Shown: one piece after another, positions 20,591 to 62,500 of the stretch
How the letters are laid out: every line of letters starts with the position of its first letter
Numbering within the stretch: the first letter of the stretch is position 1
From: Camellia lanceoleosa
Lineage: Eukaryota; Streptophyta; Magnoliopsida; Ericales; Theaceae
Length of the DNA: 64,000 nt
Direction: 5' to 3'
NCBI GenBank assembly: GCA_025200525.1
Contig: CM045761.1
Location: 78,521,551 to 78,585,550 of the forward strand
Notes under the pieces: generated by a model
Told to the model about the DNA's origin: nothing
Seen by the model: only the letters and a program-made list of their open reading frames with translations
The model's database searches: none
Made by a program: the position numbers and the translations under genes

Positions 20591-20745
20591 TTTAAAGAGG
20601 ATAAGACACTGTTCGGGGGACACGTGTCAAAAATTTGGTGGTTGCTGGGCTAAGTGGCCGGCCGGCCACCTTTTCTGGCAGGCCGGCCACCCAGCTCCTC
20701 TCCAACACAAAAAACTGGCCGGCCAGTTCCCAAAGGTGGCCGGCC
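20591..20745 (-). promoter_or_regulatory. Predicted promoter of the antisense DUF7745 gene
   Basis: On the minus strand the order is a GGCCGGCC-rich block (20745-20650), the palindrome GACACGTGTC (20628-20619), a TTTAAA box (20596-20591), then ATG at 20543. The GC block is very similar to one upstream of the PMD gene (26041-26110) and resembles the block in the A/B-type LTR. Placement fits a promoter; activity is inferred. Confidence 0.6.
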
Positions 20746-21406
20746 ATGCTCCAATATGTGTCTTTGGTACTGTTTTACCCTCTGGAAGGGAGTTCCTAGC
20801 ATTTCCATGCATCGAAAGTGTCGAAGGCCTCCATTTCCCTCAGTTTCGAATGCGTTCCGTCACCCAGATCGTCCGAAATGCACTGCGTTTATAGAATTGT
20901 CGTTGAGCCTTACTTATCGAGTTGTTGTCTTGCTTATCGAGTTGTTGTTTTGCTTATCGAGTTGTTAAGTTTGTCGAGCTGTCAAGTCTTGTACATTGAG
21001 TTGTTACTTTTTGTTTAAACCGATTGTGTTGTGTTTTTCCTATTTAGTTGTCAACTTTGTTGTGTTTTGCTTATCGAGTTTTAAACTTGCTAAGATTCTG
21101 TTATTGTCTTGGTGAGTTAAGTTGTTTAGTTTGTTGTGTCGGTTCACTACCTGGCTTGGCAAATGCACAATGCACATATCCATTCAATCTCATTTTGGTG
21201 CAAAAAGATGCGATGCGATACGATGCTAAAAACATAAAACACAACACTTTTTCAAAAGCTATTTCATTCCATCATCATCTCTTTGTTACAACATTTTACA
21301 ATAAGGGTGCAAGTTTTACAGAAAATAAAACCGCCTAACAATGTACAATGTGCTATAACTACTAGCAAAATGGTAAATAAAACAGGGAACAGCCGTATCA
21401 ATGCTC
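20746..21406. other. Spacer between antisense genes of A, with T-rich 20-bp repeats
   Basis: No gene is seen. Positions 20895-21080 hold degenerate tandem units around CTTATCGAGTTGTTGT (on plus). Comparable GAGTCAGTCTTGTTGT-type runs occur in C (33215-33310) and B (55235-55340). The part next to 21406 would be the 3' UTR of the PMD gene. Confidence 0.55.
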
Positions 21407-24400
21407 TCAAGAGCAAGAATAAGAGGCCCTCTTCATCCTCTTCTGCGAAGCAGCCTCGGCACCACTGGCACTATCCGAGTCGGAGCTGTCGCCCTCAGGA
21501 TCCTCCTCGGCCCCACCTCCACTCCCGGAACCAGGGTCAGAACCTTCATCCCTGTCAGCAGATGTATCTGACTGATGATCAGCAACCTCCTCTTCCTCAC
21601 TGGCCTCCTCCTGAATGAGGTGCACTCTGCGTCTGTGAGACAGCTCTCCTCTCCCAGCCCCTCGAGAAGGCCTAGATGGCCCAGCTCCTCGAGAAGGCCT
21701 CAATGGCCCAGCTCCTCGGGGAGGCCCGGATGGCCCGGCCTGTGACTGAGCATACACCGGAGGCATCTGAAAATGAAAAATGCAGTTTGAATACGTCAAC
21801 CAAAACATATATATCAGATACATGTGCAAGCAAACTACGCAGAGTGGATGTACACAGGAATGATGCATGAATGTAGTGTGTGTCAGATGTGCTCTACACA
21901 GGCAGCCTATCAATGCAGTAAAATGTTCAAAATCAGCATGTTATTAGAAGCACGATAAATGCCAGAAAGCTAAAGGGTACCTGAAAACCCATGATGGACA
22001 ACTGCGCCTCTCTCCGCAGGACCATCCCCTCAAATGAGGCAACCATCTCGAGCACCTCATCCATGTACTCGACCGGAGGCTGCCGATGCAAAGGCAAGAA
22101 TATCAGTAAAGGAATAAATGTCCAAGTATCTGAACAATGAATCAAAGCTGTAAAGCATACTGGGGGTGAGTCGGGGTCTCTGATGTATCGGTGGCCAGGC
22201 ATCGGAGGCTCTATCGGGATCAGAATCAGAGAGGTAGTCCCATATTGCCACCCCATCAGCTCAGTCGACATATCTGGCCATCCAGGATGAGGATAAGTCG
22301 GAGGAATTGGGGGGACCAATCCACCCCCACCCCTAGATGTATGAGCCCTGCTAGTGAAAGGGGCATCTGCAGTATGAGCCCGGCTCGATGATGGCATACC
22401 AGCAGACCTCATCGTCGGAGTACGAACCCCCGTCAGTGGAGGCATCAGATATGTGTGACGATAAGTCGCGTAATCCCCCTGCTCCAGATAAAGAAGCGCA
22501 TCAGTGCCCAACCTAGCGTCAATCACACCCTAGGTTGGGAGCCTATCGCCGATCGCATAAGTTTGGGGGTTTGAAGGAGGGTCCTGAGAGGCGTAGCCCC
22601 ACACGTGGCGCAAGAAGCGATCACCCAAAAACCAAGCCCTACCAACTGGCCCCTCAAGCAGGATCCTATACCGGGAGATACCCCATCCTCCGGCAAACCG
22701 GAATCGGAGATCTCTACCAAAAGGCGCCCAGGGCTGCCATGTGATCTGCGGGTAATCAATGCATAAGCTGATTAGAGATTGCAAAAATGTAAGATTGGAA
22801 ACATGAAGAACTGAGAGTTCTGAAATACCTCCGATGACCGCACTGTGTCAAAATATTGCCGCAAATAAGGAAGAGACTCTCGAGGTCTCGACCGGTACTG
22901 GCCTTCAAATACGAGCGAATATGGAATCGTGAGGGGCACCTCCACCATAAGCTCTGGGGCTAATACCGGGAAGTATGCGTAGACCCACAACTGTGAGAAA
23001 CAGAGCGGTAGCCATCAGAATACAGGATGCTGAATGCAGAATGTAAATACAATGTGCTGAGAGCAAGGTGCAAAGTACAGAATGTAAAGTGCGTCGTGTG
23101 TGCAATGTACAAATAATGAAAAGTAGAAATGTAAAGGGCAGAAAGTACCTCCCAGGCTCTCCAATAGCCGCCGAGTATGTTCCCCCGTTTGCGGGAAGTC
23201 GCACTCATATAACAGTAGAGAGTGGCCAGGCTGGCACCGCCCCAATCATACCGGCTAACCTGTGAAAGATCCACTAGGCGCTCGTGAAAAAGAGCCCAGT
23301 GTTCCTATCGGCAAGCAGTGGTGCCGAAGAGGAACATCAAGAATCCGCGAGTATACTGTGCCACCTCCTCGGAAGTCTCAGGCTCCATCTCCACCCTCCT
23401 GAAGTGGGAAGAGAACAAGGTGTATCGGACTCTGCCTGAAGATCTATCCACTGGAGGGCGAGCTCCCAATAAATATGTCCAGGCGGCCTCCCACTCGCCC
23501 ATGTCCTCATCATATGGGATGGCCCAACCTCCCACATCGAGGCCTGTCAGTGCGGCAAAGTCGAAAGGGGTCATGGTTATGTCCCCAGTGGCAGAGAAAT
23601 GAAAGGAGTTAGTGGTGTCCCACCATCTCTCTACCAAAGCGCCCATCGCTGTCTCGCGCTAGCGGGAAAAAAGATCCCCAACGCAGAAGGTCAACGGTGT
23701 CTGCTGGGCGGCGCAAGAAGATCCGAAAGGTGTCCCGCCACATCAACCGTCTCGGATAGCCTTGAGAGCTCGGCATACCACTCTCTCGCCATGTGAGCCA
23801 TATCCCATGACAACCGCGGAAGTCACACATTCGGGATAAGCACATGTATTCGATTTGAGAATGAAATGTATAAGGCGTGTGCAAATGAAATGTATGAGCT
23901 GTGCAAAGTTGAATCGAAAATTAGAATCAAGAACAGCGTGAGGAGAATTCAAAACTTCAGTGTGTGTTCAACATCAAAGTTTGGGCTGCGCGTCCTACTC
24001 TCAATCGATTGTGTCTTTGCGTGTTCACCTCAACAATGGTAATTGCGTTGAAAATCGAGTTTGAAGTGCGTGTTACGCTCTCAATCGGTGTGTCTGCGTG
24101 TTCACCTTAACAATGGGTGTGTGTTGAAAAATTAGAGTTTGATCAAGGCGTTCTACTCTCAATCGGTGTGTCTTGCGTGTTCACCTCAACAATGGGCTTT
24201 GTGTTGAGAAAATTAGAGTTTGAAATTTTGTTCTACTCAATCGATGTGTCGCGTGTTCACCTCAACAATGGGCTGTGTGTTCAGAAAATTAGAGTTTGGG
24301 CTGCGTGTTCTACTCTCAATCAGTGTGTGCTACGTGTTCACCTCAACAATGGGCTGTGTGTTCAAAAAATTAGAGTTTGGGCTGCGTGTTCTACTCTCAA

Positions 24401-25652
24401 TCAGTGTGTGTTGCGTGTTCACTTCAACAATGGGCTGTGTGTTCAGAAAATTAGAGTTTGGGCTGCGTGTTCTACTCTCAATCAATGTGTGCTGCGTGTT
24501 CACCTCAACAATGGGATGTGTGTTCAGGAAGATCAGAGTTTGAGTTGCGTGTTCTACTCTCAATCAGTGTGTGCTGCGTGTTCACCTCAACAATGGGCTT
24601 TGTGTTTAGAAAATTAGAGTTTGGGCTGCGTGTTCTACTCTCAATCAGTGTGTGCTGCGTGTTCAAGTTAACAATGGGTTGTGTGTTCAAAAAATTAGAG
24701 TTTGGGCTGCGTGTTCTACTTTCAATCAGTGTGTGCTGCGTGTTCACTTCAACAATGGGCTGTGTGTTCAGAAAATTAGAGTTTGGGCTGCGTGTTCTAC
24801 TCTCAATCAATGTGTGCTGCGTGTTCACCTCAACAATGGGCTGTGTGTTCAGGAAGATCAGAGTTTGAGCTACGTGTTCTACTCTCAATCAGTGTGTGCT
24901 GCGTGTTCACCTCAACAATGGGCTGTGTGTTCAGGAAGATCAGAGTTTGAGCTGCGTGTTCTACTCTCAATCAGTGTGTGCTGCGTGTTCACCTCAACAA
25001 TGGGCTGTGTGTTCAGAAGATGAAAGTTTGAGCTGCGTGTTCTACTCTCAATCTGTGTGTGCTACGTGTTCACCTCAACATTGGGCTGTGTGTTCAAAAA
25101 ATCAAAGTTTGGGTTGCGCGTTCTACTCTCAATCAGTGTGTGCTGCGTGTTCACCTCAACAATGGGCTGTGTGTTCAGAAAATCAAAGTTTAGGCTGCGT
25201 GTTCTACTCTCGATCAGTGTGTGCCGTGTGCTCACAATTAATTTATGGGGTGCGTGTTCATAAATTCAGAGTGATGTGTACAAGATGCAAATAGAATATG
25301 GTGTCATAGACTAAGCATTCTAAACAAGCTGTGTACTCGAATGAGCCGATAAACATAGCGAAAGCGCGAAATGCACTGAAAATGCAGAATGCATTGCAGA
25401 AGGTGTAAAGGCGAAGCAAAATACCTCTCGTGCCTGATAGGAGAGGTGAGACTCCGGCTCTCGTAGAAGTAGATCCTCGGGCGCCCAATCATCAAAATCA
25501 GTAAAATGGTAGAAAATAGCCCACGGAAGGACATGTACCTGAGGGGCGTACCTCTTCGGAATGAACGGTCGAACCCTTGGGGGCAAGGCCATAATATCAG
25601 GATCACCCCCGGCACCTGGAGGACCTCCACCGTGAGGAAGATGACCGGCCAT
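21407..25652 (-). pseudogene. Antisense plant-mobile-domain (PMD) gene of element A, six exons, lightly damaged
   Basis: This is a PMD (aminotransferase-like plant mobile domain) protein. The family includes the host silencing factors MAIN and MAIL1 and many transposon-borne copies. Exons on minus: 25652-25425 (LLREPESHLS), about 23830-23149 (LVERWWDTTNSFHF, RYDWGGASLATLY, YWRAWE), 22990-22829 (LWVYAYFP), 22745-22161 (ITWQPWAP, ILLEGPVGRAW), 22079-21981 and 21766-21407. Most borders are GT-AG, and exons 1, 3 and 5 are 228, 162 and 99 bp, the same as in C. The C-terminus has Gly/Arg/Pro repeats, an acidic Ser/Asp/Glu tract and a basic KRMKR end. Breaks: frameshift near 23650 in exon 2, stops at 23305 and 22530. 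The exon 2 acceptor is unclear. Confidence 0.82.
23950..25260. repeat. 81-bp tandem array in intron 1 of the PMD gene of A
   Basis: About 16 head-to-tail units run across this stretch. Starts of CTGCGTGTTC at 24301, 24382 and 24463 give an exact 81-bp period. Units at the left edge are more diverged and shorter. Each contains TCTACTCTCAATCAGTGTG and CACCTCAACAATGGGC. Because 81 is a multiple of three, long ORFs stay open on both strands; these are repeat artefacts. The array sits wholly in the first intron of the PMD gene. Confidence 0.93.
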
Positions 25653-25984: not shown

Positions 25985-26110
25985 GATGAGTATATTTAAA
26001 GGAAAGAGGGTGAAAAGACAAAACTGCCCCGAATCTGGGCTAGGTGGCCGGCCAGCCACCTTTTCTGGCAGGCCGGCCACCCCTCTCCCTCAAAACTGGC
26101 CGGTGGCCTC
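25985..26110 (-). promoter_or_regulatory. Predicted promoter of the antisense PMD gene of A
   Basis: On the minus strand a GGCCGGCC/GGCTGGCCGG block (26110-26041) precedes a TTTAAATATA box (26000-25991), about 340 bp ahead of the ATG at 25652. The block shares CACCTTTTCTGGCAGGCCGG with the one ahead of the DUF7745 gene at 20660-20690. Confidence 0.55.
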
Positions 26111-26959: not shown

Positions 26960-27480
26960 TGTAGACACCCCATTTTTGACCAACCTTAAGACTAAGACGT
27001 CACCGATTGAGCGCTTGGTGATGTTGCATATCGTGCTCATCCAGAGGTTTCAGAGTCTCGGCCGTGAGCCTTGCCTCCTAACTTCTGGGCTTTTCTGTGC
27101 TTTGCCTCGGTTTGCGAACCAGGCTCGGTTTTCTCTGTTTCTCTTTCCAAAGGGAGGGAGAGGTCTCGTAGATCATCTCTCAGTGGTTGTGGGCTACATT
27201 TCGTGGTCGTAGGCCATTTTGCCCATTTCGGAGCCCAGTTCCCGGTTTTCGGAGCAGTCAGGCCGAGTGCCTTTGTTCGGGACCGCCTAACCACCTCCGT
27301 TTGCTTCGGTTTTTGGCATGCATCTTATTCCCTCCCTTTTGAGGGACACTGTGGTCCGAGAGACCAACTTCGTGGTCGAACACCACTCCCGGTGCCTAAC
27401 ACTCAGTTTTCAGGGCCTCGGACTGCGCGTTTCGGCCCCCGAACCTTCATTTTGCATCAGTTTGCATTCATTTTTGGCAG
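26960..27480 (+). mobile_element. Element B 5' LTR, first segment
   Basis: The LTR starts TGTAGACACC at 26960 and matches the B 3' LTR from 59577. It breaks at 27480 after CATTTTTGGCAG, where element C is inserted. It resumes after C with GGACCTCTG at 49031. Confidence 0.95.
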
Positions 27481-30400
27481 TGTAGACACCCCATTTTTGA
27501 CCATCCTCAAGAATGGGATGTCACCGTTTGAACACCCGGTGATCATCCATGTTTGTGTTCGTTTGGAGTTCTCGGAGGTCTCGGCTACGCGCCTTGCCTC
27601 AGGATCTCCGAACTTGACTGTTTAGTGTCTGGTTTTGCACCAAACACTTGTGTTTTGCCTTGGAGGGCAGGGAATGTCTTGTGAGGCATCTCCACACATC
27701 ACCGGCCATGGCTAGAGGCCACCGGCTGGTATTTTGTTGCCATCGGCAATGTATATTGCCGGTCGGCATCCTTTGTTGCCGGTCGGCAGTCCATTTTGTC
27801 AAAATGGCAATTTTGAGCAGCCGATTACTGTTCATCTGCTTTTGCAAATATTTTAAAGCAGCTGGCTTGCATTTTGTTCCCCTCCATACACGTGTATGGA
27901 GGGATAGCCTCCTTGTTAGCTTCCTTGGTAAGCTTTACAAGATTGGCTCCTCTATAAGAGGAGCCCTTCCCTCTTGGCTTTAGGGTTAGAAAATTTTGGT
28001 GAGAGAAGTTGTGAGAGAAGCTCTGGATTAGGTTTAGGGTTTTATATCTATCCTATATCTATATCTCTCATTTTCTTGTGTTTGTGTGTGTTTAGGCTTA
28101 CTATTGCACACAAACACATAGTGTTACACCTTCTCTTAGTTTGTGAAGGGCCAGAGGTTTGTTCTTGAAGCTTTGGAGCTGTTTTGAGCTAAAAGAAGGG
28201 GCTGGTCCACCATTTGTGAAGAGGTTCTTCAAGGGTAACAATCTTACCCCTTTTTACCCCATTCTTGCATTCTATTTTTGCCTATCTTAGAACTGTTTTT
28301 GTGCTTGGTGTATAACATAAAAAAGTTCTATTTTTGGGCCCTCTAAATAGTTTGTTTAGAGTGTTTTGTGGTTTGGAGGTGTTTGACCCCTCTTAAGCCT
28401 TGAGGGGCCTCCATTTTGTGCTATTTTGAGTGAGCTTCGGGACTTTGGTGTTTTGGCCTCCTCGCCACTGAAATCTTGAGGGATTTTAGTGGTAAGGATG
28501 GTGCCTTGAAGTCCCAAGAAGGAGAGGGCCACCCCCTCTCCTTATTGTCCTTGAAAAGGACCATTTTTGGCCTCTTGAGGGAGCACCATGTTTGAGGGTT
28601 TGTTGATCATACCTTGGCTGTTTTTCACGCTTATATTGTCATAATATAACATGGTTTTAAATTGGTTTTGGTACACCATGCATGCTTAGCATACCTACCT
28701 TGTAATGCCATGTTTAGGCCTTAACATGCCTTAGGTTGTAAACTATTGTTCTAGCATGTTTTAGGCCTAGCTTTGTGAAGATTTTGTGCTTATTTTGCCA
28801 TGTTTGAGGCCTTTCCTTAGTCATTTTGGTCGGCCATGACATGCATTATATACCCCCTTTGCATTTTTAGTTTGTCGGCCTTAAGTGTAAGAGTGTATAG
28901 CATGCATTACTTGCTTTATTTTAATGGTTTGGCACCATCTATAGCATCATTTCAGTCCCCTTAGCATGCTTGTATGCTTGCCTTGGATGCCTCTTTAATG
29001 CCTTATGAGCTTGTGTGGTATGCTCCTTGAAAGTGCATTTGTGCATGCTTTTGAATTCAAGCCATTTAGATGCCATCTAGGTGGTCTTTTGGGCTTTGTT
29101 TTATGTGCCAAAACTCTGCTTTTGGTCATGTAAGTCTTGCCATGTGTGGTCATGTCAAGTGTAGTTCAATACTTCATTGGCTTGCCTTGAATCTTGGACC
29201 ATTGTTACATGCTTAGCCTATCTTGTTTGCTTGGTTTGACACCATGTTCTTGCATGATTTTCATAGCTTAATGCATGCCATATGTCCATGATTGTTCCCT
29301 TTTAAGTGTGCTTAAAAGATGTCCTTTGATGCTTAAGTGTTTAGGCCTTGACATGTGCATGTGTGTATGTGTGTTTGGTCCCATCTTCTTAAGCTTTGGC
29401 CACTTGTTTTGGACCTAACTTAGAGCCGTCCAATTAGCGTAAGTCCATCCCTTGTATGCCATTCAAGTGCTATTACATTATCTCATGTTTGCATGCTTTG
29501 GTTGCATGTGTTGCATGCTTGAAATCATTTGCATTTGGCATGCATTCCCTTGGTCAAATTACTAGCATGTTGCATGATTAGATTACATCTTGCATGCTCT
29601 AAGTAGTTTGCATAATTGTGGCATGCTTGTTTGCCTTGTTGCTTAGGTTATGTACCTAATGTGCATTGCATGTTTGCATGCTCCCTTTTATACCATGTTG
29701 CATGTTAGTTAACATGTTTAGGTTGCATTGAACATGCATGCCTTGTCCCTTGATTTAGTGATAGGGATTGGGCCCTTATGTGCGTGCGTGCATTACATTT
29801 GAAATCAAAATGCACGACTTGGCTTCTTGGGCCATCACGCATTAAAATGCGCGATTGATGGTCCGAGAACCAAGGTGCATGTCCCCTTGAGTCACTAACA
29901 TGATAAGGGACATGGTTGGTGCATACATGGCTTGAATCGCATTGCCATGCAAGGCTCTGTCCTCTGCTGCTGTCAAACAGGTTCTGCAGGAACTTCTTGC
30001 CGATCGACTGCACAGAGTGCCGACTGGCAATCAATTGGTAGCCGATGGATTCATCAACAGCCGATGACCACATCCCACTACCGGTGGCAATTCTACTCAG
30101 CTGGTGGTGTCCCCCAATGTCCAGGGAAGCAATTCAGAGACTTTGGCAGTCTTCAGAGGGGCAGAGCAGGGAAAACAGAGGCAGTCTATGCGTGGCAGTG
30201 CGCTTCCGAGCAGGACCCGAGCATGCATTGCATTGGGCTCTCTTCCTGAGGCGGTTTACTGTTTTCCTAGCTTAGTTAGTTTGTTAACTAATTAGGTAAT
30301 TTGTAATAATTAACTAGCCCGTAGTTAGTTAATTTGTATTATTTTTTTGGTCCCCCCCTCCCCGAGTGAGGGCAAATCTGTAATAAGTGTGGGTGCGTGT

Positions 30401-31403: not shown

Positions 31404-31408
31404 GTTTC

Positions 31409-49025: not shown

Positions 49026-52000
49026 GGCAGGGACCTCTGTTTCATCACCAGGAAGGTCGTAGAAGGGTGGGAGGCCAGTAATTATTTCAGCCACCAGTTA
49101 TATTCCTTCATCGCCCTCCGTCGCCCGTTTTTCTCACTCGAAAGCCAAGGTTGACCACCCTAAGGCCACTTTTTCCAGCTCTAAACCACATATTTGTGTT
49201 GTACACACCTGGGAGGCCACCAATATCATATGGTCGGCTAGTAATTGTGATTGACCCTTTTGAACCCCTCCTAAAAGTGGCCTTTTCTCTCTCCTGCTTC
49301 ACTGTTTCCAATTTTTGACCACAGGATTGTGTTGAGCACACATGGGAGGCCACCAATTTGTGGTGGTCGGCCACTAATTGCACTTGGCCCTTTTGACCCC
49401 GGGCCGGCCGGCCATGGGGACAGCCAGCCGACCACCTGCGACCTAGATACTTGGCCGGCCTTGATCCTTGCAGTTGGTACATCACAAATCTCTATTTCAT
49501 TTCCCCCCAGATTTTGTATCCGGGGGGCTGCCATTTTTTGGGAGAAACTTGAATTGTTTTCCCTCCCTTTTTTCCCCCTCTTTCTCCCCCTCTTTTGCCT
49601 ATATAACCACCACCCCAACTCTGGTTTTGGGATTGTATGCATATCTCCTCTATCTCTCTCACTTCAACCCTAAAAAACATCCAAGTCCTACGCCCTTTCT
49701 ACACCACCACCTAGCACCACACCACCACCTCCATTCCAGCCACTTGGAGCTGCTTTCCAGAGCTGAGGAACACCATTTCTTGTGCCAAGAAGTTGCTAAA
49801 GATTGGTGAGCTTTCATTTCCCTCTTTTTGAGCTCATTTTTGCATCCTATCTAAGCTATTCTTGCTTACACTTTTGAGCTCCGACCTTAACTAAAAATAG
49901 CATTTTTTTGATCTCTATTTCATGTTTGTTTAAGGGCCTCTCATTGTTTGAGGCCTCCTTGTTGCACTTGCTTCATTACCTCCCTTGTATGCCATTTTCT
50001 TGCATATTGTTTTTGGCCTATGTATCAACTGTTTTGAGGCATGTTGTAAACTGTAAAGTAGCTTATTTTGAGCCCTTATTCAACATTGTTGAAGGGCTCA
50101 TCACTGTTTGAGGTTTCCATTTGTCACTTGCCTTTGTATCCATCTTATGGTCTTATTTTTGCATGATTTGTTAACCCCTTGTGCTTGCATTTTTGGACTT
50201 TGTCCCAAGCTGAAAATGGCCTCATTTTGACCCCCTATTCATGTTTCATTAAGGGTCTTTTGCTGTTTGAAGCATCATTTTTATACTTTGTGTTATAGCT
50301 CTCTTTTTGGCCTTATCTTGCATAGTATTTTGAGCATACTTGTACACTGTTTGGGGTTTGGTCATCAACTGTAAAAGGTCATATTTTGGGCCCACTTCAA
50401 TATTTTTGAAGGGCCCTCATCTGTTTGGAACCGGAAACCATCACTTCCTTCTTTGTCTCTCTTTTGGCCCATTTCTTGCATGAGAGTTTAGCCATACTTG
50501 TGTTTTTTTTTGTGGTTTGTTGTAAACTGTAAAATACCATACTTTGGTCCCCTCTTCAACATTGTAGAAGGGCCCTTCTCTATTTAGGGTCAGCAGCTGT
50601 TACTTGCTTCATTATCTTGCTTTTGGGGCCTTTTTTGCATGCTAGTTTAGCCCCATTTATGTTCGCTATTTGGCCTTGATTAAAACTGTAAATATACTTT
50701 TTTTGGGGCTGTCTTGACTCTATCTTCACACTTCATGTTCAAATAATGCATGCATTGCATAGCCACAGGTCATTCCATGTGCCTAATTTTGGATTTCGGG
50801 TTTCATTTCATGCATCGGGTGCACTTTTGCCATGTTTCGGGGCTGTTTTGCATCAATTTTTGCTACTGAAATTTGCATGCTAGTATGTCATATTCCATGT
50901 CTCGCCATGTGTCTTGTTAGAGTGGCATTCGGTGCCCTAGGTTCGGTCCTTGGTTTGTGCACGCATTTCGAGTGTCTCATTTTCATCTAATGGCCTCTTA
51001 TGTGAGTGTGGTTGAGGTCCACTTGTGTTAGTGTAAGTCCATATTGCATTGTGTATGCCATTTCATTCCATAGCGTTGTGTATGCTAGGTTGTATGTTAG
51101 CGCATTGTGTATACCATGTTACCTCGTGCATTGTGTATGCCATTTCATAGCATGTTGCATGGTAGGATGTATCTTAGTTGCATTTCATGCATGTCATGCA
51201 TATTGCATTGTGTTCGGGATAGGAGTTAGCCCGTGCACGGGAAACGAGGGGCGTTTCGTACTCCGAGTGACAGAACGTGTCTCAATTCCCCAGTCACCGA
51301 CACTCCGGATCATTCATGATGGAGTTAGGTCTTGTTGTGTTTTCCTGTGCATTCATTTCATATTGAGTTGTGCGATTCGACTCCTCGGCCATCATGCATC
51401 GAGATGCGTGATTGGTGGCACGAGGATCGAGGCATCCATACATTTGTGAAAATACATTGCCATGTCCCTTTCTTGCTCTCTGTTGCAGCAAATCAAGAAG
51501 CAGCAGTCTTTCGGGGCTTGGCGCGCTTTCCAAGAATAGTTGTGAGCAGAGGCTAATTGGGGCATCACAGCGGATTTCCGCGCAAGGCAGCCCGAACATA
51601 CATCATTCATCAGAGTTGAGGCAGTTCCTGGCTTGCATGCCAATTTATTGCTTTCCTAGTTAAATTTGTTAATTAATTAGGGTTTTGTACTTATTCGGAC
51701 TGTATTTATTTGGAACTGTATATTATTCTTTTGGACCCTCTGTGCGAGGGCATAATTGTAATAAGTGTGCGTGTGTGTGATGTATGTCTTCCAACCCCAC
51801 GTCTTTCTTCCCTTTTATTTACCTGCTTATGATGGTTAGATTAGGGCATGCTTCAATTAGCATACAGTATGATAACATGTTTGCATTCATTTGTTTTGCA
51901 TGCACCGGGCTTGGCGCATCATACTAACTGCATTTCTATTTCAATTCCAAATTGAATACTTGATAGCTTTTACATCTCATATACCATGTTTAGAACAGCC

Positions 52001-52826: not shown

Positions 52827-52831
52827 ATTTC

Positions 52832-52849
52832 TGGCGACTCCGCTGGGGA
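52832..52849 (+). other. Primer-binding site of element B (tRNA-Arg, exact)
   Basis: TGGCGACTCCGCTGGGGA is an exact complement of the 3' 18 bases of plant tRNA-Arg(ACG) with CCA, 5 bases after the LTR. Confidence 0.93.
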
Positions 52850-53724
52850 TTTAGAGAACTTGACTCAAACTCATGATATCTGGTTTTGACTACACTTGTG
52901 TGTTTCTTTGCATTGCATTTGCATTGGTGCGCCTAGGACACCGTGTTTGCCATATGCTATTCCTGAATGGTTTGCCGGAGGCTTGTCTTGTCAAGGCATG
53001 ACCATAAGGCTGACCGGTTGTGGGCTCTGCTAGTATGGGAACACAAACCCTGGTTTTACCGGGAAACCCCGGTTTTACCGGGAAACCCCGGTTTTACCGG
53101 GGCACCCCTTTTGACCATTCGACCTAGTGCATATTCGGAATCCATAGTGACCATTCCAAGCTAGGACAGGTTGCTTATCCGATTGGTTGTTTGAAACCAC
53201 TGCGTGCGTAGTGAAACCCTAGCTCCTGACAAAATACGACAGGGAAACCCTACCCCAACGTAGGGGTGTTTTAGCTCTCACTTATCTGTTATGTGCTTTA
53301 GAGTGCGTCTCTACAGGAATGCATGTATCAGTTCGCGAGTTTGGACATCGAACTGCAAGGGCACCAATTCAAGATTTTGGGATTGATTTACGAGGGTATC
53401 GGTTATCGGCGGAATTTGGCGAAGTGCAGAGAGCACAGTCATTCAGCTTTGCTCATATGGGTTATCGTGAAATTAGGCTGAGATGTTGTCCATTTTCTCT
53501 TTTGCTTGGTAGTCTTGGAACCATAGCTTCAGAAGGCTCCAATATCCCCCGGGTACATCGAACTTCTGTTGATAGACTTTGTCAGGTCAAAGATTCAAGG
53601 AAAGGAAATCGGTGTTCCTTTACGGTAGGTAGGGTAAAGGTCGATCGGACAGACCACCGATCTGCAGCCTACCAGCTCAATTGTCTTTGAACAGCTAGGT
53701 TGAGATTTCGAGTCTACTGCAGAG
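52850..53724 (+). other. Untranslated leader of element B with triplicated stem-loop
   Basis: Collinear with A and C leaders. The stem-loop CCCCGGTTTTACCGGGG, single in A and C, occurs three times at a 19-bp period (53048, 53067, 53086-53102). ACCCCAACGTAGGGGT is at 53252-53267. A 123-codon frame at 53319-53690 has no counterpart in A or C, so I do not call it. Confidence 0.75.
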
Positions 53725-55118
53725 ATGGATATACTGGTGGTTCAATCAAATCAGGACAGTATGTCAGGCTTAAAAGAGATGGTGCGCCAGCTCCAGGATA
53801 GTATGAAAGCCATGCAGCAAGATGCTGTCCGTCAAGCGGAATTCACCAAGCAACAGGCCGTGGTCATAGCCCAACAAGTAGAGACAATTGCCAGGTTAGA
53901 GCAGCAAACTGGGGTATCTACTTCACACCAGGCTCCTCCCCCACCAAGAGTTCCCGTACTCGAGGAGGCAACCCACGTCCAGGATGATACGGACATTCCA
54001 GGCGGGCCAACTCCGCCCCTGGTTTTACCCCAGCTATCTAAAACACCCACCAACCTACTAGACTCCCCCTTTGAGTTCAAGAGGACCTGACATTGAAAGT
54101 GAGCAAGCTTGAGGAATTGTTCAAAAAGTCTTAGGGGGCCCATTCTATTCCTGATATAGAGGATGGTTATACTGACTCAGTGGTGACATTACCAGATCGG
54201 TTCAAGATGCCACATATCGATCGATTTGATGGCTCTGAAGACCCAATGGTGCACATTCAACTGTTTTCTGATATCTTAAGGTCAATGGGTTTGACCACTG
54301 CCCAGAAATTGTCATTATTCTACCGAACTCGCGGGATAGCCGCGTCTGGTGCAAATTGGAGAGCTCGATTGAAACGGGAGGAGATGGCCGAGGCCTTCGT
54401 CGCACAATATTCATACAATACCCAAATCGAGATTACGACCCGTGATCTTGAGACGACGAGGCAAGAGCCTAAGGAGAGCTTCTCAGAATTTGTGGCCCGC
54501 TGGAGAGCCAAGGCCTCAATGATGACCATTAGGCCAACGGATAAGGATCAAATACGGATGGTTGTGCGCAACCTCCAGCCCAAACTAATGCAGAAAATGA
54601 TCGTGCTCCCCTTCCCTACCTTTTTAGATTTTTATGAGATGGGAGTACAGATCGAGGACGCTATGAAGCAGGGCCTCATTGACCAGGAGAAGGAGCGGCC
54701 AGAGGCGTTTACCCTTGATTCGAATCGACCACCGGTGACGGCCTTGGTAAGATCTTCCGAAGTGGGCATGGTCGCCACCACCACACCAAGAGCAGCCACC
54801 TCCTTTGTTGGTGCATCCACTTCAAAACCACGAACTTCAGACTATCTACCCCGAAGCAAGAGGATTTTCACCCTACTCTTTATGTCTTTGTCTAAAGCCC
54901 TAGGGGTACTACTCCGGAAAGGACATTTGAAACCGTTAGAGCAACGGCCTCTACTCGATCCTCTCCCTCCAAAGCATGACCCGACTAAGTACTGTGTTTT
55001 CCATCAACAAACCGGTCATGACACCGATAGTTGCGTCCATCTTCGCCACGAGATACAAAATTTGATTGACAACGGGGTCATCCCTGCACCAGGTCCTGCA
55101 AAGTCTATTGGCACTTGA
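53725..55118 (+). pseudogene. gag: Element B gag, nearly complete
   Basis: Gag structural protein, ATG at 53725. Order: a coiled-coil-like Gln-rich segment (MVRQLQDSMKAMQQD), proline linker with DDTDIPGGPTPP, then, after a frameshift near 54078 and a TAG at about 54131, KLEELF, the gag core (PDRFKMPHIDRFDGSEDP to LPFPTFLDF), MSLSKALGVLL, GHLKPLEQRPLL and an intact zinc knuckle (YCVFHQQTGHDTDSC, near 54990-55035), ending at a TGA at 55116. Only two lesions were seen, so it was functional until recently. No protease or RT follows. In C and A the gag is more damaged. Confidence 0.88.
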
Positions 55119-56060
55119 TCAGTGAACTTGTGGGGGATAATGTGATGTGATCGAGAGATGAACCACCTGTGTATGGCACGCACTGTTTTGAGCATTTGTG
55201 AATGCTGGTTTTTGTACATTCTGACTTAGGTATTGGGTCAGTCTTATTGTTTTGTTTCGAGCCTGTCTTTTTGTTTTGAGTCAGTCTCTTTTGTTTTGGG
55301 TTTGTCTTGCTGTATCGAGTCAGTCCTGTTGTATAGGAGTTGGGTGATTCCCCGGGGGGGAGGGGAAGGGGTGTTACCTCGGGCGTTACCATTTTGTTTT
55401 TGTGTTTGTCTTTTCATTTTGTTTTGAGTCTATTTCTGCCTTGGAGCCAGTAATGCCAACAGATTTGAATGAACAGCAGTGGTTTTTCATGCTTTTGTGT
55501 TCGCTTCTACCGTGTGCCAGTTGTACCAGAAATTCCAAATGAGATGGCAGTATTTGACTAGAAGCTGTGTCTTTTTTGTGCCTTGAATTCATTGCATCGA
55601 CCTAAGTTTTCCAAAAGCTTTTTGAACACTGCGGTGAAAACGAAGAGGAAGGAATTCCTCGGGTTTTGGAAAATTTTGATCAATTGAGAGAAAGAGAGGC
55701 ATGCTAAGCCCTTAATGAATGAAATCATGCTTGTAAGTGTGAGTACTGGGAAGGATCCTGGCTTGATCCAGATTGGTTCTACACTGTCTTCAGCGCGAGC
55801 GATTTGTCGTTTTCTTAAAAACTTTCAAAAAATGTTTTGTGTGGTCCTGCGAAGACCTGTGTAGAATCACTCTTGAGATTTTACAGCTTAGGATCGCTCT
55901 CAGCCTCGAGACTCGACCCCTTACTTTCAAACCTTGAACTGGGATTCAGAATGTTCAACGGTCAACTACAATGTGAGGCCTGTGTGGCGGTTGAAGCGAC
56001 CCTCGAACAAGAGGCAGAAAGTCGGATCAAGAAGATCGAAGATCGAAGAAGCTTGCAAAG
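55119..56060 (+). pseudogene. pol: RT lead-in relic of element B
   Basis: Repeats of GAGTCAGTCTTGTTGT type lie at 55235-55340. From about 55625 to 55880 the DNA aligns with 15213-15480 of A and with 33595-33860 of C, without an open frame. RT, RNase H and integrase are missing. The junction to the post-pol sequence (GAGAGGCTCGC at 56216) is the same as in C. Confidence 0.72.
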
Positions 56061-57430
56061 CTAGAGCAGTACCCTTGAACTAGGGGCAAAGATGTCAGAT
56101 GTGCTCGAAGAGCCGAAGATGAGTCCTCTTGCAAATCAACAGCCACTCTCCTGGATACGAATGGCCTCAAAACCTTACAACCATTTGGCATGGACCAAGC
56201 TACACTTTTACCCTTTGAGAGGCTCGCTAGGCCGAAAACCCGAAAGGGCAACCCAGGCAAAAGTCAGAGCAAAAAATATATATATAAAAAGCAAAAAAGA
56301 AAAAAGAAGAAAAGAGAATAATGAAAAAAAAGAAATGAAGAAAAAGAAAAAAGAGAAAAAGAAGAAAAGAAATAAAAGAAAAGAAAAACAAAGCTCGCAA
56401 GGTTGAAAACCTGCAACGGGCGCCTTGGCAAAAGTTAGAGCCTAAAAAGGAGAGGTTAAATACCTGAGTGTACCTTAACCCCGAACTACGTACGGCTTGA
56501 TTCCTATCTTTAGGATACGTAGGCAACTTCATTCTGAAGTCCAGCCACAAACACCTCCAAATCAATTGTGTTCATGTAATGGTTTTGATCATCTTTGCCT
56601 TCTCTGTATCCGAGAGTTCAGTTGTAATCATCGCTCCGAGGACTGACTACAATGCGCTGCGGTGCCATTCAAATAAGGGGCAACTTTTCGTTGCCATTCA
56701 ATGCATCGCAGTGCCGTTCAAACAATGGGCAACTTTCCGTTGCCATGCAGCTCTCTTCAAGCAAGAGGCGATTTTCCTTCGGATCTGAGGTTGTGCATCT
56801 CGAGAGTGGGTTCTATGCTTGTTGAGCAGTGGCCGATTGCAAAAATAGTTTTTGAGAATTTTTACTGAGGTTGACTAATTCTCTCGAAAATTATTCCATT
56901 TTTCTAAAACTGGACCACTTTCTTGGACCCAAAAAGGAAAATTTTCAGTGCTCATAACCCAACTTGCATGATCTCAAATCAAAAATCGAACAAGCATGTT
57001 AATCTAACTCTCATTTTGGTCAAAATTGCTTTAGTAGAAAGCAAAAACAAAACATGGTCAACATGATGAACTAGGGGCACAGTTTAGTTAGGTTCTTTGT
57101 CTTTTTCCCTTTATCAACGCACTTGCCAGAAAGGGCACTCTACTTGTCAGAAAAGGGCACAACTAAAGCTAACAACAAAGGGCTGAAAGCTCTCTCACCC
57201 TCCAAGCAACGAGGTATCAAGCCCGCGTCTACGAAGCTGGAATGGGGCAAGATATTCCACTTCCTCATCTGGACATATCGATCACGTCCAAACTCCCGAG
57301 AGCATCGTCAACCGAGGTCACTGCAGTTGCTACACACCCGGTTGTATGACCCTCTGTGGGAGAAACTCACTAGCTGCGCGCAGAAGAAGAAGAATCTAGC
57401 AAAATGCTAGGGGCACAAGCCCACAACTTG
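56061..57430. other. Post-pol spacer of B: purine tract and hairpins
   Basis: A long A/G run lies at 56285-56390. The motif TTGATTCCTATCTTTAGGAT is at 56499. Hairpins GGCAACTTTTCGTTGCC (56679-56695) and GGCAACTTTCCGTTGCC (56728-56744) are perfect; a third, near 56764, is degenerate. Positions 57160-57410 are unlike A or C and carry a 95-codon frame of unknown meaning, which I do not call. Confidence 0.7.
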
Positions 57431-57605
57431 CTGTTTATCCATCAACCACCCAGGGGAGGGATTTAAAATGAGAGATTGAAGAATAGAGAGATGTGCACTG
57501 AGAGAAAAAGTGAGGAAAAAGGCTTTTTTTTTTTAGAAAAACAGAGCTTGAGGGCCGAGTGATATGAGAATCACAAATGAGAAATGGTGGGAAATAAGAC
57601 CCAGA
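57431..57605 (-). pseudogene. DUF7745 intron relic in element B
   Basis: Matches the DUF7745 intron of A (19755-19912) and the C relic (35226-35400): ATCAACCACCCAGGGGAGGG at one end and GAGGGCCGAGTGATATGAG near 57550. Exons are gone. It ends in the same GAAACTGGCTCC junction as in C. Confidence 0.72.
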
Positions 57606-58540
57606 GAAACTGGCTCCTTGTGCACTGAGAGGTCTCTTGTCTTTGTAACACGTCTGTGTGTCGTGTCTTTTGTTTTGTTTTTCTCGATTTTTGCTTTGAG
57701 TCGTTCCGAGTGTGTCTCGGTGTGTTTAGGTTGTTTACCTTTATTTTTTGTTGTTGGGTCGTCTTTGCTGTGTTCAGTTGTAGGCTCAATACCTGGTCGA
57801 GAACTCATTTTCTCAATTTCAAAAATGATTTGTTGTGTACTCAAAGTGCTGTGCCATTCTCCACATTTGTGCAAAAAAGGAATTTGTTCTTTTGAAAACT
57901 GCAGGGTTTAACCCAGGTCATGTGAGAACAGTGAAACAAGAACCTATCTGAAGCTATGTGGGTTCCAAACTGCAAAGCAAAAGAAAAGAGGGAAAATAGA
58001 AACATCTGAGTGTGTTTCACCTTCAGCGAATTCTGAGATTGTATTCTGGATATAACTCTTTAGACCTTGTCAGTGTTCCAAAGAATGAGCGTGCCTCTAT
58101 CCCAAGTGTAAGCCTGCTTCAAGTCAGAATAGCGATTAAAGCAGTAACAGATGTTATCTCTCTCTAATATGAACAGGGTGTGCCCGTTTTTGAGCTGAAT
58201 GTGTTGCAAACCCCTCCGAAAGGTAAATCGGAGGTTGCGTTTTAATCTGGTCTCGTTAAGGCTTGTATCCCCTTATTCGGTATTTTGTTTCAAATATGCG
58301 TTGTCACGCACATTCCACTTGCATTGTTATGCATCCTTCCACCCGTATTGTTATGCACTTCTCATGCTTGCATTGTGATGCCCATTCCAATTGCATTGTT
58401 ATGCACCCACTTCACTAGCATTGTTATTCTCATTCATTGCATTGATTATGCACATCTATCTTGCATTGTTATGCACCTTTTCACTTGCAATTGTCTTTCT
58501 TTCTCCTCGCACGTGCGACGGGTCAGACTTCCTCTGGTTT
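57606..58540. other. Non-coding region of B in place of the PMD gene
   Basis: Collinear with C before and after S3 up to about 58030. The PMD gene is absent. Positions 58300-58490 have repeated GCATTGTTATGCAC units, matching A near 26440 and C near 42650. No gene is seen. Confidence 0.65.
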
Positions 58541-59380
58541 AGAGCATTTGGAATACGTTCCAATGCTTATCCCTTTTCCGAAACACCGGGATACGTCCCT
58601 ACGTTTCTCTCTTCTTTCTGAAACACCGGGATACGTCCCTAAGTTTCTCCCTCTTTTTGAAACACCGGGATACATCCCTATGTTTCTCTTGCCTTTCCAA
58701 AACACCGGGACACGTCCCTATGTTTCACATTCCTTGCGGAACACCGGGATATGTCCCTATGTTTCACATTCCTTGTGGAACACCGGGATACGTCCCTATG
58801 TTTCTCATTCCTTGCGAAACACTGGGATACGTTCCTATGTTTCACATTCCTTGCAGAACACCGAGATACGTCCTTATGTTTCTCCTTCCTCCTGAAACAC
58901 TGGGATACGTCCCTATGTTTCTCCTTCTTTTCTAACCACTGGGATACGTCCCTAATCTTTGGGATACGTCCCTAACCTTTGGGATACGTCCCTAATCTCT
59001 GGGATACGTCCCTAATCTCTGGGATACGTCCCTAATCTTTGGGATACGTCCCTAATCTGTGAGATACGTCCCTAACTTCTAGGATACGTCCCTAACCTCT
59101 TGGATACGTCCCTAATCTTTGAGATACGTCCCTAACTCTGGGATACGTCCCTAAACCTTGGGATACGTCCCTAAACCTTGGGATACGTCCCTAAATCTTG
59201 GGATACGTCCCTAAACCTTGGGATACGTCCCTAAACGCCGGGATACGTCCCTAAACCTTGGCATACGTCCCTAAACAGCGGGATACGTCCCCATGTTTCT
59301 CCATCATTGGTTAAGAGCATCTGGAATACGTTCCAATGCTTATACCTTTCCGAAACACCGGGATACATCCCTATGTTTCT
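58541..59380. repeat. GGGATACGTCCCTA minisatellite of element B
   Basis: A higher-order array. The left part (58555-58935) has about eight units of 50-60 bp, each with CACCGGGATACGTCCCTATG and TTTC. The right part (58935-59295) collapses to about twenty units of 17-19 bp (GGGATACGTCCCTAATCTTT). A last long unit lies at 59300-59380. GGGATACGTCCC is itself nearly palindromic (GGGA-ACGT-TCCC-like). ORFs here are artefacts. Confidence 0.93.
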
Positions 59381-59576
59381 TTGCATGATCATAAGTTATG
59401 TTCGGCTTCTTGCATTATCATTTGCATTTGCCTGCTGCGGGCAAGCTCTTGAGCACATCTTTGTCTATCTTATGCCTTTGTCTAAGTCTTGACCTTGTCA
59501 AAAATGGGTCGTCTCACGGGCTTTGACATTCACTCCGTCATTCTTATGACTTTCGAGTTCTGTCAAGAGGGGCAAC
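59381..59576 (+). other. 3' end of element B internal region with polypurine tract
   Basis: Collinear with C (44930-45116). The PPT TCAAGAGGGGCAAC (59563-59576) abuts the LTR. Confidence 0.85.
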
Positions 59577-62500
59577 CAGACACCCCATTTTGACCGACCT
59601 TAAGACTTAGGCGTCACCGATTGGCGCTTGGTGATGTTGCATATCGTGCTCGTCAGAGGTTTGAGTCTCGTAGTGAGCCTTGCCTCCGGACTTCCGGGCT
59701 TTTCTGTGCTTTGCCTCGGTTTGCGAACCAGGCTCAGTTTTCTATGTTTCTCTTCCCAAAGGGAGGGAGAGGTCTCGTAGATCATCTCTCAGTGGCCGTG
59801 GGCTACATTTTGTGGTCATAGGCCATTTTGCCCATTTCGGAGCCCGGTTCCCGGTTTTCGGAGCCGTCAAGCCGAGTGCCTCGGTTCGGGACCGCCTAAC
59901 CACCTCCGTTTGCTCTGGTTTTTGGCATGCATCTTATTTCCTCCCTTTTGAGGGACACTGTGGTCCGAGAGATCAACTTCGTGGTCGAACACCACTCCCG
60001 ATGCCTAACAGTCAGTTTTCGGGGCCTCGGACTGCGCGTTTCGGCCCCCGAACCTTTATTTTGCATCGGTTTGCGTTCATTTTTGGAAAGGACCTCTGTT
60101 TCATCACCAGGAAGGTCGTAGAAGGGTGGGAAGCCAGTAATTGTTTCAACAACCAGTTATATTCCTTCATCGCCCTCCGTCGCCCGTTTTTCTCACTCGA
60201 AAGCCAATGTTGACCACCCTAAGGCCACTTTTTCCAGCTCTAAACCACATATTTGTGTTGTACACACCTGAGAGGCCACCAATATCATATGGTCGGCTAG
60301 TAATTGTGATTGACCCCTTCGAACCCCTCCTAAAAGTGGCCTTTTCTCTCTCCTGCTTCACTGTTTCCAATTTTTGACCACAGGGTTGTGTTAAGCACAC
60401 ATGGGAGGCCACAAATTTGTGGTGGTCGGCCACTAATTGCACTTGGCCCTTTTGACCCCTGGCCGGCCGGCCATGGGGAGAGCCGGCTGGCCACCTATGA
60501 CCTAGATACTTGGCCGGCTTTGATCCTTGTAGCTGGTAGATCGCAAATCTCTATTTCATTTCCCCCATTTTTGTATCCATTTTTGGGAAACTTGAATTGT
60601 TTTCCCCCCCCCTTTTTTCTCCCTCTTTCTCCCCCTCTTTTGCCTATATAACCACCACCCCAGCTCTGGTTTTGGGGTTGAAAAAAAATGCTTTAGAGCC
60701 TTGTATGCATATCTCCTCTATCTCTCTCACTTCAACCCTCAAAAACATCCAAGTCCTACACCCTTTCTACACCACCACCTAGCACCACACCACCACCTCC
60801 ATTCCAGCCACTTGGAGCTACTTTCCAGAGCTGAGGAACACCATTTCTTGTGCCAAGAAGTTGCTAAAGATTGGTGAGCTTTCATTTCCCTCTTTTTGAG
60901 CTCATTTTTGCATCCTATCTAAGCTATTCTTGATTATACTTTTGAGCTCCGACCTTAACTGAAAATAGCATTTTTTTGAGCTCTATTTCATGTTTGTTTA
61001 AGGGCCTCTCACTGTTTGAGGCCTCCTTGTTGCACTTGCTTCATTACCTCCCTTGTATGCCATTTTCTTGCATATTGTTTTTGGCCTATGTATCAACTGT
61101 TTTGAGGGTAAACTGTAAAGTAGCTTATTTTGAGTCCTTATTCAACATTGTTGAAGGGCTCATCACTGTTTGAGGTTTCCATTTGTCACTTGCCTTCATA
61201 TCCATCTTATGGTCCTATTTTTGCATGATTTGTTAACCCCTTGTGCTTGCATTTTTGGACTTTTGTCCGAGCTGAAAATGGCCTCATTTTGACACCCTAT
61301 TCATGTTTCATTAAGGGTCTTTTGCTGTTTGAAGCATCCTTTTTATACTTTGTGTTATAGCTCTCTTTTTGGCCTTATCTTGCATAGTATTTTGAGCATA
61401 CTTGTACACTGTTTGGGGTTTGGTCATCAACTATAAAAGGTCATATTTTGGGCCCCTATTCAACATTTTTGAAGGGCCCTCATCTGTTTGGAGACGGCAG
61501 CCATCACTTCCTTCTTTGTCTCTCTTTTGGCCCATTTCTTGCATGAGAGTTTATCCATACTTGTGTTTGTTTTTGTGGTTTGTTGTAAACTATAAAATAC
61601 CATACTTTGGGCCCCTCTTCAACATTGTAGAAGGGCCCTTCTCTTTTTAGGGTCAGCAGCTGTTAGTTGCTTCATTATCTTGCTTTTGGGGCCTTTTTTG
61701 CATGCTAGTTTAGCCCCATTTATGTTCGCTGTTTGGCCTTGCTTAAAACTATAAATATGCTTGTTTTGGGGCTTTCTTGACTCTGTCTTCACAATTCATG
61801 TTCAAATAATGCATGCATTGCATAGCCACAGGTCATTCCATGTGCCTAATTTTGGATTTCGGGTTTCATTTCATGCATCGGGTGCACTTTTGCCATGTTT
61901 CGGGGCTGTTTTGCATCAATTTTTGCTACTCAAATTTGCATGCTAGTGTGTCATATTCCATGTCTCGCCATGTGTCTTGTTAGAGTGGCATTCGGTGCCC
62001 TAGGTTCGGTCCTCGATTTGCGTGCACGCGTGCACAATGGCCTCTTATGTGAGTGTGGCTGAGGTCCACTTGTGTTAGTGTAAGTTCATATTGCATTGTG
62101 TATGCCATTTCATTCCATAGCGTTGTGTATGCTAGGTTGTATGTTAGCGCATTGTGTATGCCATGTTACCTCGTGCATTGTGTATGCCATTTCATAGCAT
62201 GTTGCATGGTAGGATGTATCTTAGTTGCATTTCATGCATGTCATGCATATTGCATTGTATTCCGGATAGGAGTTAGACCGAGCACGGGAAACGAGGGACG
62301 TTTCGCACTCCGAGTGACGGAACGTGTCTCAATTCCCCAGTCATCGACACTCCGAATCATTCATGATGGAGTTAGGTCTTGTTGTGTTTTCCTGTGCATT
62401 CATTTCATATTGAGTTGTGCGATTCGACTCCTCGGCCATCATGCATCGAGATGCGTGATTGGTGACACGAGGATCGAGGCATGCATACATTTGTGAAAGT

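Follow-up and report, generated by a model that had tools for sequence, protein, structure and literature searches.

A paired GC-rich site module in the LTRs and antisense gene blocks of nested Ty3/gypsy-type elements of Camellia lanceoleosa

The stretch analysed here, 64,000 nucleotides of Camellia lanceoleosa (GenBank assembly GCA_025200525.1, contig CM045761.1, positions 78,521,551 to 78,585,550) and referred to below as the window, holds a nest of giant Ty3/gypsy-type retrotransposons, which we call A, B and C, and two solo long terminal repeats (LTRs), S1 and S2. Short, near-palindromic GC sites lie ahead of TATA-like boxes in the LTRs and again, on the opposite strand, ahead of antisense genes for a DUF7745-like protein and a plant mobile domain (PMD) protein. 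We think it rather probable that these sites form one cis-module, present at several promoters, read by the same factor and spread by copying between LTR and antisense promoters. The sites, their spacing and position, their matching by lineage (A/B and C/S1/S2) and their abundance in the genome are direct observations; the blocks that hold them are putative promoters and are called promoters below for brevity.

Paired GC sites in LTR and antisense blocks

An earlier note on this DNA had described a GC block followed by TATA or TTTAAA, sometimes with a CACGTG palindrome between them, in three LTRs and upstream of three antisense genes, and had proposed that the blocks match within each element. 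In all six stretches that it quoted, the GC block and the TATA or TTTAAA are present as described. The blocks of the window are as follows.

20591 to 20745, minus strand: antisense block of A's DUF7745-like gene; five GGCCGGCC (two overlap), CACGTG, and TTTAAA 56 bp past the last site
25991 to 26110, minus strand: antisense block of A's PMD gene; GGCCGGCC sites, a GGGGCAGTTTTG core, and TTTAAATATA 42 bp past the last site
41876 to 42010, minus strand: antisense block of C's PMD gene; GCCGACCGGC and, 20 bp further, a second site in decayed form, a GGGGCAGTTTTG core, and TTTTAAAA 45 bp past the last site
27719 to 27965, plus strand: block of C's 5' LTR; GCCGGTCGGC at 27758 and 27778 (20 bp apart), CACGTG palindrome, and TATAAG 165 bp past the last site
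About 45352 to 45600, plus strand: copy of this block in C's 3' LTR, without an exact site
10650 to 10877, plus strand: S2 LTR block; CACCGGCAC..TGCCGGTCGGCAC, CACGTG palindrome, TATAAG
4172 to 4494, plus strand: S1 LTR block; GCCGGTCGGC at 4172, GCCGACCGGC at 4192 (20 bp apart), TATATAAG at 4487
49400 to 49606, plus strand: block of B's 5' LTR; three GGCCGGCC (two overlap), and TATATAA 137 bp past the last
60461 to 60651, plus strand: block of B's 3' LTR; two overlapping GGCCGGCC, and TATATAA 170 bp past them

At the core of the module stand two near-palindromes of ~10 bp, which are GGCCGGCC-like in A and B and GCCGRYCGGC in C, S1 and S2. The window contains 12 GGCCGGCC sites against 0.41 expected, the highest count in 100 shuffles being 3, and all 12 fall into four clusters: upstream of the DUF7745-like gene (5) and of the PMD gene of A (2), and in the 5' (3) and 3' (2) LTRs of B. 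GCCGRYCGGC occurs 11 times against 0.07 expected, a count that none of 100 shuffles reaches; of these sites, LTR U3 and antisense blocks contain nine, and the other two, at 12759 and 47649, fall in a second cluster within the LTRs. A density scan with related 6-mers placed its 12 highest 150-bp peaks in LTRs and antisense blocks without exception, three of them in the second LTR cluster, and 10 of the 12 exceed the maximum (19) of 30 first-order simulations. The observation of a common block in LTRs and antisense promoters is thus confirmed, the site counts being far above those of shuffles and concentrated in these blocks.

Steps between adjacent sites were counted for sites that differ from GCCGRYCGGC at no more than one position, with GGCCGGCC treated as a separate pattern. 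The GCCGRYCGGC-like step is 20 bp in 5 of 5 cases in the C LTRs and in every case in the antisense blocks of C (10/10), S1 (3/3) and S2 (1/1); the S1 LTRs have five steps of 20 bp and five of 71 bp. In A, 21 bp is the commonest such step, with nine in the LTR (plus seven at 37 bp and eight at 41 bp or more), 6 of 11 in the DUF7745 block and 10 of 10 in the PMD block, and it also leads among the GGCCGGCC steps of the DUF7745 (35) and PMD (8) blocks. Over the genome, taken as 3.0 Gb, GCCGRYCGGC-N{4,30}-GCCGRYCGGC, which covers steps of 14-40 bp, matches at 23,695 places and its reversed-pattern control at 2. A step of exactly 20 bp accounts for 20,247 of these and one of 21 bp for 2,640 (controls 0 and 0), leaving ~800 for the other 25 steps, a rough figure since a start with two partners may count once; the first 50 pairs in genome order comprise 40 at 20 bp and eight at 21 bp, with single pairs at 22 and 40 bp. 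These pairs are not independent events, because they are copies of few ancestors. What is independent is the persistence of the step in several LTR, DUF7745 and PMD blocks whose surrounding sequences differ. A CC/CC pattern, with 892 places, was of no help in testing the pairing.

The distance to the TATA-like box, counted from the last site with decayed sites allowed, is 42 (A), 45 (C) and 45 bp (S2) in the PMD promoters and 56 (A) and 58-59 bp (S1 family) in the DUF7745 promoters. The LTRs have gaps of 151-156 (A), 137-170 (B), 165-185 (C), 161 (S2) and 285 bp (S1). Given the near-constant gaps, the module has kept its position in corresponding antisense promoters, whereas its site type differs together with that of the LTR. 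The reading of TTTAAA as a TATA variant is supported by the PMD promoter of S2, which has TTATAAAA at the position of C's TTTTAAAA.

The palindrome CACGTG, which the earlier note had included in the module, was rejected as a common part of it. It is not enriched (16 in the window against 9.9 expected, with 6 of 100 shuffles reaching 16) and no family has it in both LTR and antisense blocks: it is found in the LTR blocks of C (5/6) and S2 (2/2) and not of A (0/20), B (0/2) or S1 (0/5), and among antisense blocks in the DUF7745 block of A (17/19) and not in the PMD blocks of A (0/18), C (0/11) and S2 (0/1) or the DUF7745 block of S1 (0/3). A ~22-bp palindrome around CACGTG stands between GC block and TATA in C (27881-27902 and 45517-45538) and S2 (10800-10821), and is not present in the A, B or S1 blocks.

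The second cluster of sites, inverted, is at 29916-30065 on the minus strand of C's 5' LTR, with copies at 47565-47714 (C's 3' LTR) and 12655-12804 (S2) and a weaker one near 6390 (S1). Its distance from the LTR start is 2.2-2.5 kb in C, S2 and S1; the minus-strand sequence that follows it in C resembles that after the PMD-promoter sites. Possibly it is a third promoter, antisense and inside the LTR.

LTR and antisense blocks across copies

Stretches of 20 A-family, 10 C-family and 4 S1-family elements were fetched, and one S2-family element in two pieces, taken as one because they are between or in two S2-type LTR matches, on one strand and 18.7 kb apart. An element's own LTR block and an antisense block are both present in 18 of the 20 A, 4 of the 10 C, 3 of the 4 S1 and the single S2 copies, which with A and C of the window gives 28 elements. 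Left out were L021 and L023 (A; own 3' LTR not in the stretch) and L044 (S1; no antisense peak) and, from the LTR comparison, L031, L033, L035, L038 and L039 (C; no usable LTR start by pattern) and L040. The last of these, with C-type antisense and S2-type LTR sites, was considered as a mismatch and is read as a nested insertion, because its LTR starts in C-type internal DNA ~170 bp before the internal end.

At the level of the two lineages, LTR and antisense blocks are of one site type in each of the 28 elements: GGCCGGCC is in the LTR and the DUF7745 block of all 19 A elements and in neither block of the 9 C/S elements. GT/AC-centred sites occur additionally in the PMD block of L018 and the LTR of L026, both A. 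For A itself the match proposed in the earlier note had rested on the LTR of B, because A's own LTR blocks lie outside the window; the fetched blocks of its flanking 5' and 3' LTRs do carry GGCCGGCC and match A's antisense blocks.

A scan of the window together with A's flanks showed that A's two antisense blocks find each other before anything else (score 96), ~46 bp being nearly identical. Next, the DUF7745 block finds A's LTRs (44 and 44), and the PMD block finds A's LTRs (40 and 38) and C's PMD block (38), with which it has the core promoter in common. The antisense block of C finds the S1 LTR (38), A's PMD block (38) and the C LTR (31). The remaining places listed score at most 33 for A's antisense blocks and 27 for C's. 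Median alignment scores between antisense blocks and the LTRs of each family are given below; the reference is 60 mononucleotide shuffles per cell (95th percentile 21-23, largest 22-30), and the PMD block of L012, judged to be the wrong block, is left out here and in the own/other comparison below.

DUF7745 block of A: A 38, B 27, S2 24, C 20, S1 20
PMD block of A: A 31, B 26, S2 24, C 21, S1 20
PMD block of C: C 38, S1 38, S2 31, A 22, B 20
DUF7745 block of S1: S2 39, S1 38, C 29, A 24, B 21
PMD block of S2: S1 68, S2 52, C 38, B 21, A 20

Scores within a lineage are well above shuffles, and between lineages the medians equal or come near those of shuffles. The antisense blocks therefore match the LTRs of their own lineage, without own-family preference inside C/S. 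The resemblance of the antisense block to the LTR block of its own group, put forward in the earlier note, thus stands, and the matching that it had placed within each element holds between the two lineages but not at the level of family or copy. Sequence exchange, which it had also suggested, is plausible: ~90 bp of the LTR of the A-family copy L012 can be aligned with the window's DUF7745 promoter, both read in the direction of transcription (score 50, against a maximum of 29 in 200 shuffles).

Several results weigh against a single module copied among promoters and held there by one factor. The agreement in 28 of 28 elements is one phylogenetic split, seen at three promoters, and the copies were chosen by similarity to the window blocks. 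No exact site was found in 5 of 18 PMD blocks of A (GGCCGGCC) or, for the other type, in C's 3' LTR in the window and the LTR of L042. The 21-bp step is weaker, and only partly kept, in A's LTR, where other GGCCGGCC steps are commoner (31 bp, 12; 132 bp, 11; 17 bp, 10; 41 bp, 9) and 21 bp has only 4 among the steps listed. As 2.3 kb and a repeat array separate A's PMD block from its open reading frame (ORF), we infer the link between them. Moreover, C's PMD block fits the S1 LTR as well as its own, S1's DUF7745 block fits S2 better than S1, and S2's PMD block fits S1 better than S2. Own copies score no higher than other copies (own/other 38.1/38.1 for the DUF7745 and 32.8/33.0 for the PMD block of A, 35.2/37.8 for the PMD block of C and 36.7/38.2 for the DUF7745 block of S1), and exchange element by element was not seen. 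Best alignments have the same orientation relative to transcription for A's DUF7745 block, S1 and S2, the opposite one for C, and both equally for A's PMD block; one promoter copied whole therefore does not explain all the blocks.

A Mantel test on 16 A copies (L020, with an odd LTR, left out) bears on the same point. With three region controls, distances between LTR blocks correlate with those between PMD blocks (partial r 0.68 at all sites and 0.73 at transversions, p 0.001), a point in favour of the shared module. The corresponding values for the DUF7745 block, 0.15 (p 0.19) and 0.45 (p 0.008), are further points against, as is the finding that without controls the LTR block also tracks the internal end (0.74) and the PMD ORF (0.71). 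This tracking, together with a division of the A copies into two sub-groups, means that the Mantel correlation may reflect incompletely controlled sub-family structure. Overall, the earlier interpretation is supported in part, for the common module and the likeness by lineage; the covariation of LTR and antisense blocks across elements or families that it had called for was looked for and found no support, own copies matching no better than others and S2's PMD block scoring 68 with the S1 LTR against 52 with S2, and the CACGTG component fell away.

The second A sub-group consists of L017, L022, L023, L026 and L027, whose identity to the internal end of A is only 80.6-84.1%, against 86.9-94.4% in the 14 remaining copies that have a match; in L017, L026 and L027 the LTR and PMD blocks are also more divergent than most. 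L020 has a divergent LTR with a doubled start at 5941-6102 (two TGTAGACACC, 161 bp apart). Slower CpG decay at the sites was considered as a possible sign of protection. In copies chosen by the DUF7745 block, CG is retained at 0.89 in the sites of that block against 0.71 in the rest of it and 0.75 in the gene piece, at 0.90 against 0.57 for the PMD block (90 comparisons only), but at 0.62 in LTR sites against 0.58 in adjoining sequence and 0.65 at the LTR start.

A proposed shared factor, probable copying and alternative explanations

In this model the module consists of two near-palindromic GC sites of ~10 bp (more of them, as an array, in A) whose usual spacing is two turns of the helix (20 bp in C/S1/S2 and often 21 bp in A). 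It is placed upstream of a TATA-like box in the LTR, where it would drive gag-pol, and again on the opposite strand ahead of the antisense DUF7745-like and PMD genes. The geometry of the pair suits a dimeric or tetrameric DNA-binding protein docked on one helix face; sense and antisense transcription would then switch together, both units answering to one factor as the earlier note had suggested. Short promoter pieces would have been copied between LTR and antisense promoters, and the copies subsequently maintained since the same factor must read them all. Promoter activity, the controlling protein, joint control and copying we infer from the sequence.

Site sequence differs between A/B and C/S alike at LTR, DUF7745 and PMD promoters, and the gap to the antisense TATA-like box is nearly unchanged. 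This difference at three promoters might come from copying, from co-evolution with an element-encoded factor or from one tolerant host factor; copying combined with a shared factor fits most of the results. A host transcription factor that reads all site types, the elements merely having a host enhancer in common, is a possible but somewhat unlikely explanation by itself. The sequence GCCGAC, which we take to be the core of the dehydration-responsive element/C-repeat (DRE/CRT), is contained in GCCGACCGGC, and several of the 23 copies in the window lie in LTR or antisense blocks; however, other copies lie outside the blocks, and the A/B-type GGCCGGCC is without GCCGAC. Control by the elements themselves we regard as rather doubtful: a candidate antisense regulator (PMD or DUF7745) or another element protein would bind the site pairs both at the LTR and at the promoter of its own gene, sites and protein co-evolving by lineage in the manner of the VANC proteins of VANDAL transposons. 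It would account for the occurrence in one genome of two site types that differ together at LTR, DUF7745 and PMD promoters, which a host factor of fixed specificity explains less easily, and VANC provides a precedent in dense arrays of short motifs that diverge by family (PMC5735166). On the other side, a DNA-binding domain is demonstrated in neither the PMD nor the DUF7745 protein, and the site types are close, both being built on CCGRYCGG, so that one host protein might read both. By the same analogy, and tentatively enough that we do not favour it, the lineages could have split through a joint change of the regulator and every site that it reads, which would make the system an equivalent of VANC in retrotransposons, with a two-way switch. 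The host-factor and element-factor readings are two forms of the shared-factor explanation, and their probabilities overlap.

It is unlikely that the likeness is lineage history without shared regulation, with pieces of LTR U3 copied neutrally to antisense promoters, or back, by reverse transcription or recombination. Such copying would leave alignments of the kind seen between the L012 LTR and the DUF7745 promoter, between A's two antisense promoters, and between S2's PMD block and the S2 LTR, where 77 bp are colinear. What is common across lineages and contexts, however, is the sites, their step and the TATA distance rather than the flanks; a step of 20 or 21 bp is found again in block types whose surroundings are unlike, orientation differs between blocks, and corresponding antisense promoters of different site type have a near-equal TATA distance. 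Chance likeness of GC- or CpG-rich stretches is hardly credible, for although the blocks are short and G+C-rich, no shuffle in 100 reaches the site counts, and the 20-bp step is sharp genome-wide with 0 reversed-pattern matches. Copying between promoters read by a shared factor is thus the explanation that we prefer. The more than 20,000 exact copies of the pair in one genome make a defined probe for finding the controlling protein; a site pair common to LTR and antisense genes offers a handle on sense/antisense co-regulation, and it bears on whether plant retrotransposons carry regulators of their own as some DNA transposons do.

Antisense genes, related systems and the nest of elements

The antisense genes of the window are the following.

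19752 to 20543, minus strand: DUF7745-like ORF of A, 263 aa (E 0.0028, below the Pfam cut-off)
23308 to 23658, minus strand: PMD ORF of A (PF10536, E 8.2e-11); its block lies ~2.3 kb upstream
39993 to 40837, minus strand: PMD ORF pieces of C (PF10536, E 4.6e-7 for 40376-40837 and 3.1e-6 for 39993-40328, both below the cut-off)

The genes correspond across the lineages, PMD in A and C and DUF7745-like in A and S1. The N-terminus of A's DUF7745-like ORF resembles S1-family antisense proteins, and four of six antisense ORFs scanned in three S1-family copies match DUF7745, all under its cut-off (E 1.7e-4 to 5.3e-3). We take the A and S1 genes as corresponding because of these matches and because A's ORF and two S1-family copies have the start MExFLxxNLxxWIxxLDGSE in common. 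Antisense accessory ORFs thus lie between pol and the 3' LTR, the PMD gene in A and C and the DUF7745-like gene in A and in S1-family copies, a feature of the Tat clade that is not unique to it. No TRP28 (PF04195) was found in the minus-strand ORFs scanned from the A, B and C internal regions, and DUF1985, as a mark of a VANC-related protein, was not listed in the Pfam scans of window ORFs; these scans covered part of the ORFs, and as the genes are broken a piece of TRP28 could have been missed.

Repeated activator sites ahead of an LTR TATA box are familiar from Tnt1, whose BII boxes are tandem enhancer boxes in a plant LTR. The present sites are similar in that respect and different in recurring at antisense internal promoters, where to our knowledge boxes of the BII type are unreported. 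No report of a site pair common to LTR and antisense genes was found by title or abstract in the open-licence PMC literature. The VANDALs of Arabidopsis, which have the VANC anti-silencing system, are transposons of a different class. They likewise have dense, short, family-specific motifs in noncoding DNA that diverge between families, but arrayed in one orientation and with binding demonstrated (PMC5735166), whereas the present sites are near-palindromes, often in 20/21-bp pairs. Here too short motifs are dense in noncoding DNA, specific to two lineages and not to each family.

Plant Ty3/gypsy elements are well known to carry antisense accessory ORFs, whose functions are described as unknown, and transcription of Grande gene23 is driven by its own promoter (PMC7264820, PMC11963269). 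The antisense ORFs of Grande (gene23), Retand and RIRE2 are comparable to those described here, Retand also having tandem arrays nearby, and the text covered makes no mention of a common sense/antisense promoter module (PMC7264820, PMC11963269). The genes differ from those of Retand-type elements, being PMD and DUF7745-like; the antisense TRP28 ORF that characterises Retand in that work is absent from the minus-strand ORFs scanned, and the LTRs of S1, S2, B and C measure 3.7-4.3 kb against 315-1,194 bp (PMC11963269). Human T-cell leukaemia virus (HTLV), AtRE1 and Mdoryco1-1 are further cases of one element transcribed in sense and antisense; the antisense promoter of HTLV is inside the 3' LTR, whereas here separate internal blocks repeat the LTR sites (PMC7264820).

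Element borders were drawn from self-comparison of the window and a reading of the junctions, which place C inside the 5' LTR of B and B inside the internal region of A.

27481 to 49025, plus strand: element C, full length, in B's 5' LTR; 5' LTR 27481 to ~31404, 3' LTR 45116 to 49025
26960 to 63873, plus strand: element B; 5' LTR 26960 to 27480 and 49031 to ~52826, the two parts split by C; 3' LTR ~59575 to 63873
3887 to 7778, plus strand: S1 solo LTR, inserted in A; target site duplication (TSD) CTATT
10424 to 14124, plus strand: S2 solo LTR, inserted in A; TSD AGTAC
1 to 2440, plus strand: A's 5' LTR, 3' part only; its GC block is left of the window (L029)
From about 63982: A's 3' LTR; its GC block is right of the window (L030)

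The LTR pair of C is 97.3% identical and its TSD is GGCAG (27476-27480 and 49026-49030); that of B, inserted in A, is CTTGT. The borders of C, B, S1 and S2, with TG..CA LTRs and 5-bp TSDs, are those of Ty3/gypsy LTR retrotransposons, the exceptions being the end of C's 3' LTR (TA) and the start of B's 3' LTR (CC). In B and C a primer binding site, TGGCGACTCC[AG]CTGGGG, follows the 5' LTR and a polypurine tract, AGAGGGGCAA, precedes the 3' LTR. On the sense strand of A, RNase H (RVT_3, 16615-17319) precedes integrase (rve, 17717-18070, just under its cut-off), the Ty3/gypsy order. The internal region of B (52827-59575) is only ~6.7 kb long and has no GC-site peak in the density scan; B appears to be a reduced relative of A. 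Tandem arrays of 39- and 20-bp units (58579-59291) lie ahead of B's 3' LTR, of 213-bp units (43306-44360) ~1.3 kb upstream of C's PMD block, and of 81-bp units (23978-25235) between A's PMD block and PMD ORF.

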